From NCBI GenBank assembly GCA_017610335.1, contig JAFCCG010000017.1:1-44510 (forward strand): a stretch of 44,510 nt of DNA, read 5' to 3'. Below are positions 1-39,191 of this stretch, one piece after another. The position numbers were made by a program, and so were the translations under genes. This stretch comes from Chloroflexota bacterium (GTDB lineage: Archaea > Iainarchaeota > Iainarchaeia > Iainarchaeales > GCA-2688035). The first letter of the stretch is position 1. Each line of letters opens with the position of its first letter. The notes below the pieces were generated by a model. The model made no database searches. It was not told where the DNA came from and saw only the letters and a list, made by a program, of their open reading frames with translations.

Positions 1-142
1 CAAGCGAAATGGTGCTCTTGTGGTAGTTGTGGTTTTCGCCAGCCTTTTTTTCTAAAAGGCTGTTCAATTCCCGCAGGGTCCATAGCCGCCACTGCTGGCT
101 GGTCAGAGTACCATCTTCGCACCTTTTAGGCGTTCGATGATA
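1..142. repeat. Hairpin repeat cluster at window edge
   Basis: Non-coding stretch before the first gene. Bases 1-17 are a truncated reverse copy of the hairpin-2 motif (core CAAGCGAAAT). Bases 41-61 form a hairpin (AGCCTTTT / AAAAGGCT). Bases 84-100 form hairpin 1 (AGCCG / TGGCT). Bases 109-142 form hairpin 2 (TACCATC / GATGATA) around a TTCGC-starting loop. The same motifs recur near 13.6, 26.6 and 38.6 kb. No ORF is credible here. Confidence 0.6.
63..82 (+). other. tRNA 3'-end fragment
   Basis: TTCAATTCCCGCAGGGTCCA reads as a T-loop, the 3' strand of a T-stem, a 7-nt acceptor strand and a discriminator A. The matching T-stem 5' strand is absent; a hairpin (41-61) lies there instead. It is therefore a scrap of a tRNA gene rather than a tRNA. 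The same arrangement, hairpin then tRNA 3' end, occurs at 26689-26731. Confidence 0.5.
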
Positions 143-239
143 CATACTCTCGTTAGTTTGTAATATAGTTATTCATGAAAAAACCATGTTTTTAGGCAAT
201 GGAAAACCTTTTTTATTCCCTTAGTGTATTCTATTTGGA

Positions 240-13169: not shown

Positions 13170-13496
13170 TTACTCCAATTGCTTCAGTCTTACAAAACAG
13201 GCTTCGCAGATAAACCTTTCATTAAAGTCAATGCCGTTTTCTTTTTTTTCATCGCATAAAATACATTGCTTTCCTTTTCCTATTGGCTTTACATTGTCTG
13301 CCCATGCTCTTAAAAGTTCCCAGGAAACCCATTTTGGCATAAACATTTCCTTCAGTACGCTTTTGTCATTTTTTTGAATCCTTTCAAGTTGGCTTGGTAA
13401 AATCTTTTTGTGCAGATTTTTCAGCAAGCGGACTTTGTCCTCTGCACCTTTTCTTGTAAGGTTAGTTAATATTTGTTCAAAAAATTCATTGCTCAT
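13170..13496 (-). CDS. Hypothetical zinc-binding protein
   Basis: A 108-aa soluble protein: a helical N-terminal half and a C-terminal zinc motif CILCDEKKENG...FICEACF (two CxxC pairs). A conserved-looking KWVSWELLRAWADNV helix lies between. Not recognised. Its upstream region is the hairpin element and duplicated gene end at 13529-13750. Confidence 0.7.
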   Translation of the reverse strand: MSNEFFEQILTNLTRKGAEDKVRLLKNLHKKILPSQLERIQKNDKSVLKEMFMPKWVSWELLRAWADNVKPIGKGKQCILCDEKKENGIDFNERFICEACFVRLKQLE

Positions 13497-13528
13497 AAAA
13501 TCACTTTGTTATAATTTAATTACTTCAA

Positions 13529-13564
13529 ATAAATTACTCTTTTCCCATTTTTAATCTTTGTCCT
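13529..13564 (-). repeat. Duplicated gene 3' end (outer copy)
   Basis: 36 bp matching 13715-13750 at 34 positions. Read on the minus strand it still encodes RTKIKNGKRVIYLK and, just past the matched block, a stop. The true gene end encodes RTKIKNGKKVIYLK. Differences are conservative or synonymous (AGA/AAG, TTG/CTA, AAG/AAA). Confidence 0.85.
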
Positions 13565-13714
13565 TAGCCGCCACAGCCGGCTGATCTGAGTGCCATCTTC
13601 GCTTGGGCTCGATGACACATTTCGTCTGGGCTTGCAAAAAAGCCGCCACAGCCGGCTGATTTGGGCAAGGAGCCTATTGCTTTTTAGCAATAGGCTGGCT
13701 TTGCATTATTTTAG
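13565..13714. repeat. Hairpin element between the two gene-end copies
   Basis: Contains hairpin 1 twice (13566-13582 and 13641-13657; AGCCG / CGGCT, 7-nt loops), hairpin 2 (13591-13617; TGCCATC / GATGACA around TTCGCTTGGGCTC) and a strong hairpin 3 (13671-13696; AGCCTATTGC / GCAATAGGCT). Related hairpins occur at 1-142, 26635-26708 and 38576-38632. It carries no ORF. Confidence 0.8.
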
Positions 13715-14116
13715 ATAAATTACCTTTTTCCCATTTTTAATCTTTGTCCTCTTTGCATATTTTTCCAAATAATGCACTGTGCTTTTTGAAATTCCTGTAA
13801 CATTTTCAACTTCTCTAAGGCTTTGATAATCTTTTCTCATCTCCAAAGCCTGTTGCATTTTTTCTAAAGGAACCGAAATTGGACGACCTGCTCTTGTTTC
13901 TGTTCCGATTGCAATGCCTTTTTTTCTAATCAAAGCAATGTTTTTTTTTGGCATTCTTGCAAGACAGCTTTTGCTCAAGGTCATTTGTCTTAACCCGTTG
14001 CATTTTTTCAGAATTTTTTCAAGCAATTCTTTTTTTACCGGTCTTACAAAATGAAGCTGTGTTGCCTCTTTTGGAATATCCTTCAATGACATTCCTGGAA
14101 AAACGGACGAAATCAT
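13706..14116 (-). CDS. HTH protein with DUF1699-like N-terminus
   Basis: A 136-aa protein. The N-terminal part (ATQLHFVRPVKKELLEKIL, and CNGLRQMTLSKSCLARM) resembles archaeal DUF1699 proteins. The C-terminal part has GRPISVPLEKMQQALEM and a resolvase/ISxO-type helix-turn-helix (EVENVTGISKSTVHYLEKYA). Probably a DNA-binding regulator. I start at the ATG giving MISSVFPGM; a TTG two codons upstream is possible. Its last 36 coding bases are the inner copy of a duplication. Confidence 0.75.
   Translation of the reverse strand: MISSVFPGMSLKDIPKEATQLHFVRPVKKELLEKILKKCNGLRQMTLSKSCLARMPKKNIALIRKKGIAIGTETRAGRPISVPLEKMQQALEMRKDYQSLREVENVTGISKSTVHYLEKYAKRTKIKNGKKVIYLK
13715..13750 (-). repeat. Duplicated gene 3' end (inner copy)
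   Basis: The genuine C-terminal coding end of the HTH gene (RTKIKNGKKVIYLK). It matches 13529-13564 in the same orientation, 186 bp apart, and brackets the hairpin element. Confidence 0.85.
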
Positions 14117-14387
14117 GCACAAATATCAGGACAAAGAATTATTTAAATTTAGCGTATTTGCCTTCTTATAGGTGCAAATCCGCTTGCCCTTGCAGAACCT
14201 GCTTCCTTGTTATTGAGGCTTGTTGCCCGCTGCGTTTTTTTCTTGCAGCCATTTAAGTAATACTTAGCTTTTTTGCTTTTTATTTCTATGCAAATTTTTG
14301 TTTTTTTTAATAATTAGCTTTTTTTTGCGGTGAGGTTTTTGTTGGTGTTTTTGAGGCAGATAATTTTAAACTGGTAATTTCCGGTTT
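14117..14387. other. Intergenic region, 271 bp
   Basis: T-rich on the plus strand, between two minus-strand genes. It holds the upstream region of the HTH gene (TATA-like AATTATTTAAATTT near 14138-14151) and a broken minus-strand frame at 14149-14252, which would encode a 33-residue basic peptide only if one base were inserted in an A7 run. No convincing gene. Confidence 0.4.
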
Positions 14388-37413: not shown

Positions 37414-37527
37414 AGTGAAAAAATTAGTTACAAGTCATATTTTAAACATTATTAAAGCAAAAAATACCTCTCCAAATCAATTAAATTAATGATTTTTAAC
37501 TTTATTAACATCCTGAGTTTAAATAGG

Positions 37528-37543
37528 CCTCAGTCCGCCCATC
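37528..37543. repeat. Array 2 direct repeat, copy C
   Basis: CCTCAGTCCGCCCATC, identical to 38560-38575 and 14/16 to 38661-38676. It lies between tRNA-Arg and hicA and closes the HicBA-GNAT module. Confidence 0.85.
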
Positions 37544-37589
37544 CTACTCTAAAGACCAAGGTTTAATTACATAAATTAATAGCCACCAG

Positions 37590-37820
37590 TTACTTCAGGA
37601 ACTTTAAAACTTCTTCACTTTTCAGATTAGATTGCCTTAGAATTGACTTCATTGTACCGGTTCTAATCACCGGCTTTAGTGGAACAATTACCGTTAACTT
37701 TCTTCCGCTTGCAAATTTCCTCAGCTTTACATGGCTTCCTCTTTGCTTGACAAACTTGAAGCCAGCTTTTTCTAATGCTTTGACTACTTCTTTTCCTGAG
37801 AGAACTGGAAACTTAGGCAC
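37590..37820 (-). CDS. hicA: HicA-type mRNA interferase toxin
   Basis: 76 aa: SGKEVVKALEKAGFKFVKQR, then GSHVKLRK with the catalytic histidine, VIVPLKPVIRTGTMKSILRQ and a final EVLKFLK. Full-length HicA with a double-stranded-RNA-binding-like fold that cleaves mRNA. GTG start overlaps the end of hicB by 8 bases, the usual coupling. Confidence 0.88.
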   Translation of the reverse strand: MPKFPVLSGKEVVKALEKAGFKFVKQRGSHVKLRKFASGRKLTVIVPLKPVIRTGTMKSILRQSNLKSEEVLKFLK

Positions 37821-37968
37821 ATGCTTTCACTTCAAAAGTAGTGACAAAAGGAGCAATATCTGAAAGCTTTATGTCCTTCTCATCTTCCAAATAAAGCTCA
37901 ACTGCTTCCTTCAAATTGGCCAAAACATATTCTCCTTCTTCCTTACTAATTACAGCAGATAATCTCAA
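37813..37968 (-). CDS. hicB: HicB-like antitoxin, internally shortened
   Basis: About 51 aa from a TTG preceded by GGTGATA. LRLSAVISKEEGEYV matches the first HicB strands and LANLKEAVELYLEDE the conserved helix. The roughly 20-residue segment normally between them (containing the CPELPGC-like turn) is missing without a frameshift. It ends with IAPFVTTFEVKACA. The toxin gene is intact, so this short antitoxin must still work or the toxin is neutralised otherwise. A longer start (38022) is less likely. Confidence 0.72.
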   Translation of the reverse strand: MRLSAVISKEEGEYVLANLKEAVELYLEDEKDIKLSDIAPFVTTFEVKACA

Positions 37969-38046
37969 AATATCACCTACTATAAATGATAAATAAAGAG
38001 TATAAAAAAAGATTTGTTTCACCTAACTTTTACAAAAGAGGAGGGT

Positions 38047-38517
38047 TTAATCTTGGATTGTTTCCCTATTAGGATAGGCTACTTTTTTGAACGGCCATTC
38101 TGCTTTAACCCATTCTTTTACCGCTTTGAATAAAACCGGGTCAAGACCTTTTTCATATTCAGTTTTTCTGACCCACAAAAAAACAACCGCGTCAAAGCCC
38201 GGTGTTTGAGAAGGGTAGATGTAAACGCAGCCCAGGCACCTACGTTCACTAAGATTTACTACAGTATATGTGAATGCTGTTCGTTCTTCAAATTCTTTCT
38301 GGTGATGAAGCAAATCAGCTTGATTTTGTTCCATTGTTAAATTTTTGGACGGCCACTCAGAATCAGGACCAAAAATGCCTTTCAGGAGGTCAACACTTGA
38401 AATTACCGCATCAAAGTCTTTTTCAACATCGTCTACAGTAAGTTTTCGCAATTTGAATCTCTTTGTTTCAAGCTTTTCCGGAATCTTAAAATCTGTTGGA
38501 ACAAAAGATTTGCCCAT
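38047..38517 (-). CDS. GNAT-like acetyltransferase
   Basis: 156 aa. KLETKRFKLRKLTVDDVEKD is the usual N-terminal strand/helix of RimJ-like GNATs. Later come FTYTVVNLSERRCLGCVYIY (strands 2-4) and EKGLDPVLFKAVKEWVKAEW (acetyl-CoA-binding helix region). Substrate unknown. It lies inside the interval bounded by array 2 repeats, together with HicBA. Confidence 0.68.
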   Translation of the reverse strand: MGKSFVPTDFKIPEKLETKRFKLRKLTVDDVEKDFDAVISSVDLLKGIFGPDSEWPSKNLTMEQNQADLLHHQKEFEERTAFTYTVVNLSERRCLGCVYIYPSQTPGFDAVVFLWVRKTEYEKGLDPVLFKAVKEWVKAEWPFKKVAYPNRETIQD

Positions 38518-38559
38518 AAATCTATTTGGAAGTAATAAAGATTAAAAAGTAAATTACCG

Positions 38560-38575
38560 CCTCAGTCCGCCCATC
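38560..38575. repeat. Array 2 direct repeat, copy B
   Basis: CCTCAGTCCGCCCATC, identical to copy C at 37528. It separates the GNAT-HicBA module from the hairpin unit. Confidence 0.88.
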
Positions 38576-38632
38576 AGCCGTCACGCCCGGCTGGTGCGAG
38601 CAAGAATGCCATTTCGCTTGGGCTCAATGGCA
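38576..38632. repeat. Hairpin unit of array 2
   Basis: Hairpin 1 (AGCCG 38576-38580 / CGGCT 38588-38592) and hairpin 2 (TGCCATT 38607-38613 / AATGGCA 38626-38632, loop TCGCTTGGGCTC). The loop is nearly identical to the one at 13598-13610, while the stem bases differ in a compensating way. Confidence 0.8.
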
Positions 38633-38654
38633 TGGCTTCGCATAAATTAAAAAT

Positions 38655-39191
38655 TCAACACCTCAGTCCGCCGATGGTAAAATTGTCGTCAAATGGCAGT
38701 AATTCTGCAATCATTCCAATAAATGCTGCTGCAATCGCAACAGGCCATTGGAACAGGAATGAGAGGAAAAAAAGGCTTGCTGCAATTCCTCCAAAGGTTC
38801 CTTCCAGTGTTTTTTTTCCTGCAATTTTGTGTTTTCCAAACCTTAATCCAAAAACGGTGCTTGCGGCGTCACCGTAAACAGCAACACACAATGCACCCAA
38901 AACAATTGCCTTTTCCTGAAACAAAACAATGGTGATTATTGCTGCGAGAAAAAAAAGCAAAGCGCCTTTGCCAGGCAAATGTTTTTCGTAATCACGTTCA
39001 ACCCTTTGCACAATATGCAAAAGCAAAGGAATCTTTACTCCTTTCTTTAAGAGAAATGAAACCAAAATGCCTGTTCCAAAACATGCTGCGAGAACAAAAA
39101 AGCTTTGCTCAACGCCAAGCAATGCGATCAATGAGATAAAGAAAGAGCCGAACAAAAAGTGAATAAATTGCCTTCTTGCCTCTGTTTTCAT
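38655..39191 (-). CDS. SEC59/VTE5-type CTP-dependent lipid kinase
   Basis: 178 aa, about six transmembrane helices. EARRQFIHFLFGSFFISLIA, ERDYEKHLPGKGALLFFLAA, GDAASTVFGLRFGKHKIAGK (CTP/cytidylyl motif), KKTLEGTFGG and the terminal ELLPFDDNFTI are typical of dolichol/phytol kinase-like proteins. It would phosphorylate an isoprenoid or lipid alcohol in the membrane. The family's last hydrophobic residues are replaced by GGLRC encoded by array 2 repeat copy A, so the 3' end has been rewritten. Confidence 0.85.
   Translation of the reverse strand: MKTEARRQFIHFLFGSFFISLIALLGVEQSFFVLAACFGTGILVSFLLKKGVKIPLLLHIVQRVERDYEKHLPGKGALLFFLAAIITIVLFQEKAIVLGALCVAVYGDAASTVFGLRFGKHKIAGKKTLEGTFGGIAASLFFLSFLFQWPVAIAAAFIGMIAELLPFDDNFTIGGLRC
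38661..38676. repeat. Array 2 direct repeat, copy A (inside gene 3' end)
   Basis: CCTCAGTCCGCCGATG, 14/16 to copies B and C. On the minus strand GGCGGACTGAGG codes for the last residues GGLR of the SEC59-like protein. Confidence 0.85.

Follow-up and report, generated by a model that had tools for sequence, protein, structure and literature searches.

Hairpin-forming units at gene boundaries and duplicated gene ends in Diapherotrites genomes

RESULTS

The end of an HTH-type gene is duplicated around a hairpin-rich insert

The DNA analysed here (the window) is the whole 44,510-nucleotide contig JAFCCG010000017.1 (C55; 36% GC over the window) of a 1.29 Mb draft genome, G000, from a very small archaeon of the symbiont type, whose named near relatives are Ca. 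Diapherotrites (Iainarchaeota, DPANN). Every genome compared with it is likewise a draft. An open reading frame for an HTH-type protein of 138 aa (13706..14122, minus strand) has orthologues in 50 of 54 relatives and matched no Pfam family. It is followed on the same strand by a 108-aa gene with a weak Pfam Gin match (13170..13496), which served as a positional anchor. Between the two, the end of the HTH gene is present twice, as a direct repeat of 46 bp (13519–13564 versus 13705–13750) with 41 of 46 positions identical, a spacing of 186 and 140 bp separating the copies. The repeat covers the last 14 codons and the stop of the gene; the first-pass annotation had described it, correctly, as a duplicated 3′ end, at the slightly shorter length of 36 bp. 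Agreement at 41 of 46 positions at a given offset has a chance probability of ∼2e-17, and the site reaches a duplication score of 63, where at most one of 791 scrambled pairings within the same genome reached 34.

The inner copy (13705..13750, minus strand) forms the present 3′ end of the HTH gene and encodes RTKIKNGKKVIYLK followed by a stop, while the outer copy (13519..13564, minus strand) encodes RTKIKNGKRVIYLK, has a reading frame as intact as that of the inner copy and also ends in a stop. The two differ by five nucleotides in three codons, two of the codon changes being synonymous and one Lys/Arg, in accordance with the earlier description. G002, a genome assembled independently, repeats this layout around a shorter insert, with both ends (RTKIKNEKRVIYLK and RAKIKNRKRVIYLK) open, and this recurrence argues strongly against an assembly error.

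The insert between the copies (13565–13704) is 140 bp long, visibly higher in G+C than its surroundings and full of hairpins. Its outer part is a complete two-hairpin unit (HP1 + HP2; 13566..13619, minus strand) of the dispersed family described below, matched by the family's covariance model R1 at 79.8 bits (E 8e-19), with its CGGCT end abutting the outer copy. The gene-side part (13641..13704, minus strand) is a hairpin set composed of GCAAAGCC, then AGCCTATTGC...GCAATAGGCT, and HP2 (13641–13667, matched as a truncated unit); a set of this type is the only one at the HTH site in G002. The insert holds no coding gene, its sole listed open reading frame being a 56-aa frame that runs through the hairpins into the outer copy, and no homing endonuclease gene, for which 140 bp is too short. 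A known structured RNA was also considered and dropped: tRNAs alone scored above the Rfam gathering threshold in the window, and the best weak match at the HTH locus had E=0.32.

Orthologues separate a native end from a replacement end

To see which copy matches the ancestral 3′ end, as the first-pass annotation had proposed, the HTH gene was compared with its orthologues. A single gene end is present in the congeners G004 and G005 and in more distant relatives, and the same downstream gene lies within a few tens of bases of that end in G004, G006, G013, G014, G008 and others. The outer copy of G000 sits exactly where this single end sits. Relative to the intact end in G003, the outer copy differs at 2 of 45 bases and the inner copy at 7; in the rest of the gene, fourfold sites differ between G000 and G003 at 10 of 35 positions, and the outer copy is therefore more conserved than neutral sequence (p=5e-5, binomial; 0.004, Fisher). 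Since orthologues free of the element have one end beside the same downstream gene, these alignments identify the outer copy as the native, now stranded, C-terminus and the inner copy, which the gene uses now, as the replacement, and this part of the earlier interpretation stands. In G003 itself the HTH gene has two tandem ends without hairpins, the second being AGATTAAAAATATGAAAAGAACAATTTATTTGTAA (L033 1915–1950, G003:C16), which may perhaps be an excision footprint.

The codon differences between inner and outer ends are mostly synonymous, with 6 synonymous and 0 other in G005, 7 and 2 in G002, and 2 and 1 in G000, and an equal number of random changes seldom does as well (P=2.5e-4, <5e-5 and 0.025, respectively). 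This could mean either that the inner end came with the element from a diverged relative or that gene conversion refreshes the copies. In G000 the two copies do not differ over their first 25 bp, and one change in the outer copy is otherwise found in inner copies only, an indication of conversion or exchange. Decay of the outer coding copies is slower than expected under neutral drift, a slowness that we can only infer to result from the allele-exchange step proposed below.

The insert belongs to a dispersed family of two-hairpin units

The segment at 13562–13617 recurs in the source genome and its congeners, and an alignment of 16 copies defined the unit: HP1 has a variable stem with the apex GA-GC-CCAA-GC-GAA, and HP2 has the form CNN-CC-AGCC-GG-NNG and is followed by CGGCT. 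At E<=1, the covariance model built from it finds 13–33 candidate copies in each of the six congeneric genomes; other families of the order (Ca. Diapherotrites) have smaller numbers. Units of the family are usually ∼55–60 nt long; the insert is therefore no worn-down relic, contrary to the earlier suggestion that its 150 bp of hairpins are all that is left of something larger, and a search for a larger element between the copies found none at the HTH site.

Across 86 copies, both-sided changes occur in 14 of 15 pairs (167 cells), none of 500 shuffles reaches the observed covariation score, and structures slid along the alignment lose score. These counts are biased towards the model, to which the alignment was fitted, but that bias should also raise the number of G-U pairs. 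With one mismatch-tolerant pair set aside, G-U (G·T) mismatches number 46 and A-C (A·C) mismatches 38 (p=0.45). Because the two are equally common, where G-U would be expected to prevail in RNA, we infer that the conserved fold is one of DNA rather than RNA.

One end of the unit is fixed and commonly faces a tRNA gene

At the HP2 end the junction is fixed, with CGGCT usually followed by A and, three bases on, by G (CGGCT, then ANNG); G occupies that +3 position at 37 of 61 non-tRNA sites (p=5e-12). The opposite, left end is ragged. For 23 of 107 units, no more than 4 nt separate the fixed end from a tRNA edge, against 0.18 expected; the 23 are not a count of independent events, given that several of the sites are orthologous between species. 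The ragged end is this close to a tRNA edge in one case. Of the 23 units, 13 lie at a tRNA 5′ end and share the strand of the tRNA, and 10 lie at a 3′ end with the opposite orientation, and HP2 therefore always faces the tRNA. Some units occupy tRNA introns (ARAGORN calls) as far as the 3′ exon (L129, L174), and the tRNA-edge pattern extends to other families (G028, G052, G038). Empty sites were found in congeners for L153, L152, L158, L159, L172 and the rpl24e-like site described below.

Two further placements concern protein genes. A unit conserved in two species (L176 5500–5560, G003; L007 2347–2407, G000) lies directly upstream of the Shine-Dalgarno sequence of a ribosomal-protein-like gene, which we take to be S19e, and has perhaps been co-opted there. 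At L119 19565–19700 (G003:C19), the open reading frame of a gene with a membrane-like segment runs through a unit, which is placed in frame in the N-terminal part of the coding sequence.

A subset of units is flanked by duplicated target sequence

Strong direct repeats flank 12 of 105 units, compared with 1 of 791 scrambled pairings from the same genomes, and the repeat usually begins at the fixed end. The duplications span 11 to 47 bp, and several are perfect: 19 bp at L153 and L157, 21 bp at L119 and 29 bp at L082. L153, L157 and L119 are protein-gene cases: the L153 repeat (G002) lies over overlapping stop and start codons, and that of L119 (G003) surrounds an array of three units. An rpl24e-like gene, the identity we assume for it, is duplicated at its end in G001 (29 bp, perfect) and G005, with an empty site in G000, G002 and G003. 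In G001 the repeat stops short of the native stop and the new stop comes from the element, which fits target duplication rather than a carried end.

At tRNA genes, the duplicated sequence is the T-loop-to-acceptor segment or part of it, in tRNA-Ser (L085), tRNA-Leu (L003) and tRNA-Ala (L112, L007), with weaker cases in tRNA-Leu (L105) and tRNA-Gln (L171). The likeness to tRNA-targeting elements that the first-pass annotation had drawn is thus borne out within the family itself. One such case lies at the contig edge of the window, where a third family unit (84..144, minus strand; R1 match 55.6 bits) abuts a copy of the tRNA-Ala T-loop-to-acceptor segment, GTTCAATTCCCGCAGGGTCCA (62..82, plus strand). 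The full array is present at the same locus in G003, where it reads END-spacer-END-spacer-END-unit with two identical 95-bp repeats, and in G014, of another genus, in the same layout with fewer repeats. A second shared module, ∼GGAnYGnAACCGTGnAAAGTGCAnGC...CCGC, was also observed between tRNA-end copies in two genera (L232 600–680, G000:C90; L227 820–890, G006).

A second unit of the window (38576..38634, minus strand) lies at the end of a CTP_transf_1-like gene (38655..39191, minus strand) and has imperfect GATGGGCGGACTGAGG repeat flanks. In relatives the gene is free of an insert and its C-terminus is longer; in the window, GGLRC beside the unit takes the place of the last ∼17 residues (IPIAAGFILSILVALL in G003). 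The insertion at 38576–39191 thus cost the gene its native C-terminus and did not keep it intact. We considered whether the GATGGGCGGACTGAGG flank, which recurs at C32, C55 and, less closely, C20, is a carried gene end. At the C32 locus, G003 lacks a unit and has GATGGGTGGACTGAGG, and the C20 copy follows the stop of a different gene; the flank may belong to a longer repeat or to the native locus, and it is not counted as evidence here. In relatives, a tRNA-Arg(CCU) directly follows the CTP_transf_1-like gene, and in the window ∼1.2 kb lies between them (37414–38655), with a 156-aa open reading frame that matched no Pfam family.

The earlier proposal that the element brings a replacement end and thereby keeps its target gene intact therefore holds in part. 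The HTH gene was kept and the CTP_transf_1-like gene was not. As to the origin of the extra end, the evidence points both ways. At L093, a decayed tRNA-Ser end and linker, 30 bp in all, lie between two units at a site that is not a tRNA gene (21 of 30 matches, p=2e-5), and this resemblance suggests a carried end; the perfect 19–29-bp duplications at unrelated targets look, from their sequence, like target-site duplication.

DISCUSSION

A probable mechanism and its alternatives

We consider it probable that the units are non-autonomous hairpin-forming DNA elements that insert at gene boundaries and duplicate their target, with later exchange of alleles. At the HTH gene, the element would have inserted at the 3′ end and duplicated the segment from AGGACAAAG to just beyond the stop; one copy of the end would have stayed joined to the gene, keeping it intact, and the native end would have been displaced to the far side. 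The element would move as folded single-stranded or cruciform DNA, and a recombinase or nuclease acting in trans would introduce staggered cuts where the DNA is structured or at boundaries such as the edges of tRNA genes. Element and neighboring gene end may later pass between lineages by ordinary homologous exchange, so that an inner end can look diverged and yet be functional. Weighing against this account, duplications of 11–47 bp are unlike those of most transposases and most units have no recognisable duplication. Neither an enzyme nor an excised form of the element was identified. A Y1 transposase was found in the drafts of G000, G003 and G005 and not in those of G001, G002 and G004.

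Site-specific integration by a tyrosine recombinase, in which the repeated end is a carried attachment core, the hairpins are its arms and the small units are deletion leftovers or satellites moved in trans, is in our view unlikely. The tRNA duplications run from T-loop to acceptor end as with class II integrases such as that of phage Ms6 (PMC1762012), and the tRNA-Ser end with its linker between two units at the unrelated site L093 also fits a carried core. Against this, the duplicated segments are unrelated between targets while the unit is constant, and several are perfect at unique targets. All six congeners have tyrosine recombinase genes (PF00589), and some of these genes neighbor units and tRNA genes, but no unit contains one and every control genome has them too, so their presence says little. 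That nothing moved at all is rather improbable: tandem duplication of a gene end and its flanking hairpins, with gene conversion keeping the copies alike, would suit the identical first 25 bp of the G000 copies, the change that its outer copy shares with inner ones, and the two identical 95-bp repeats at the G003 tRNA-Ala, but members of the family are found, precisely bounded, at many sites that are unrelated to one another, and filled and empty alleles of the same site occur across species.

Two of the remaining alternatives turn on RNA. Selection of the units beside genes as signals for tRNA or mRNA processing or termination could explain their placement at exact tRNA edges and the unit that G000 and G003 share upstream of a ribosomal-protein-like gene; we regard it as very improbable given that units lie on the tRNA strand at 5′ ends and on the opposite strand at 3′ ends, always HP2-first, that G-U is not in excess over A-C, and that the duplicated ends are left unexplained. 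Copying by reverse transcription, as in a SINE-like retroelement, would account for the fixed right (3′) end, the ragged left (5′) end and the variable length of the target duplications, but it is extremely doubtful: a search of nine genomes, including one that is 97% complete, found no RVT_1 reverse transcriptase, so the enzyme would have to be supplied by a host, and the base pairs have no RNA-like preference. The same lack of RVT_1 in the nine genomes led us to reject a diversity-generating retroelement. The idea that the outer copy derives from the end of a paralogue since deleted, with no relation to the hairpins, which the first-pass annotation had named as its alternative, found no supporting evidence and is refuted by the orthologues to the point of being virtually impossible, as the relatives' single end matches the outer copy in position and the arrangement recurs at the rpl24e-like gene and at tRNAs.

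Known classes of element were compared with the units as well. Casposon or Cas1-type integration was rejected with Cas1 found in none of the six congeners (all drafts), and an integron gene cassette was rejected with the fixed end being CGGCT before ANNG and not the attC core, where crossover falls between G and TTRRRY. IS200/IS605 or REP/RAYT elements insert without target duplication, and a subset of the units has clear duplications.

Some arrangements involve tyrosine recombinase genes. L155 2001–3579 (G003:C24) and L178 610–2221 (G005:C152) hold the same tRNA gene, called Tyr in L155 and Asp in L178. In both species a unit lies at the 5′ end of this gene, its intron is rich in hairpins, and a tyrosine recombinase is encoded directly downstream; the integrase of G005 is frame-shifted. 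At L002 888–1909 (G000:C61), a unit is followed by a reversed tRNA 3′ half and then a partial tyrosine recombinase, an order that looks like one end of an integrated element.

Going beyond the mechanism that we consider probable, we tentatively suggest that gene-free elements of this kind could recognise folded DNA itself: the two-hairpin unit would join, always by the same end, the base of another fold, chiefly the tRNA cloverleaf, and a staggered cut would give the target a spare 3′ end. If true, a short parasite could live harmlessly inside the gene ends of compact genomes.

Relation to known systems and significance

Short, dispersed, hairpin-forming and gene-free elements are familiar in bacteria as palindromic elements of the REP/PATE and RPE types. 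The archaeal units differ from these in their conserved tRNA-edge placement and gene-end duplications, with a Y1 transposase in three of the six congeners. Integration into the 3′ end of a protein gene, with the gene end duplicated and restored, is known from phage 21 and e14 in icd. The tRNA-targeting tyrosine-recombinase elements share features with the units, and class II T-loop elements such as Ms6 likewise duplicate the gene end, restore the gene and involve the segment from T-loop to 3′ end (PMC1762012). In contrast to such elements, the archaeal unit has no integrase, has many unrelated cores, is shorter than 200 bp and also abuts tRNA edges without duplication.

In fungal mitochondria, mobile open reading frames replace the C-terminus of genes (atp6 in Allomyces; atp6, atp9, cox2 and nad3 in Glomus), and horizontal transfer was the explanation given there for an inserted C-terminus that had diverged while the native one next to it matched relatives (PMC3630166). 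As in the archaeal case, the insert at the 3′ end carries a working C-terminus and the downstream native end matches relatives better (here, 2 differences from G003 in the G000 outer copy versus 7 in the inner), and in atp6 the differences of the native end from the relative are synonymous (PMC3630166). The fungal inserts encode a homing endonuclease and are on the 1 kb scale, whereas the archaeal insert is made of gene-free hairpins and its family hits tRNA edges too. The double-hairpin and repetitive hairpin-forming elements of mitochondria in Allomyces and sponges are similarly very short, gene-free, dispersed and scattered in their presence between close relatives; in the portion of that account drawn on here, no precise tRNA-edge boundary, fixed orientation or gene-end duplication appears, and cell and genome are of another kind (PMC2800124). 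Our literature search on DPANN, Diapherotrites and archaeal hairpin or MITE elements returned no description of this unit family. Short hairpin elements, inserts that replace a C-terminus and integration at the T-loop are thus each known separately, and their archaeal combination with a fixed tRNA-edge boundary was not found in the literature searched.

The family offers an archaeal, gene-free counterpart of the C-terminus-replacing mobile elements of fungal mitochondria, and its clear set of filled and empty sites makes it possible to study the movement of very short hairpin repeats. A source for the tRNA-flanking hairpins and hairpin-rich tRNA introns of these reduced DPANN genomes is suggested as well, as is a route by which gene ends may be swapped between lineages with function kept.
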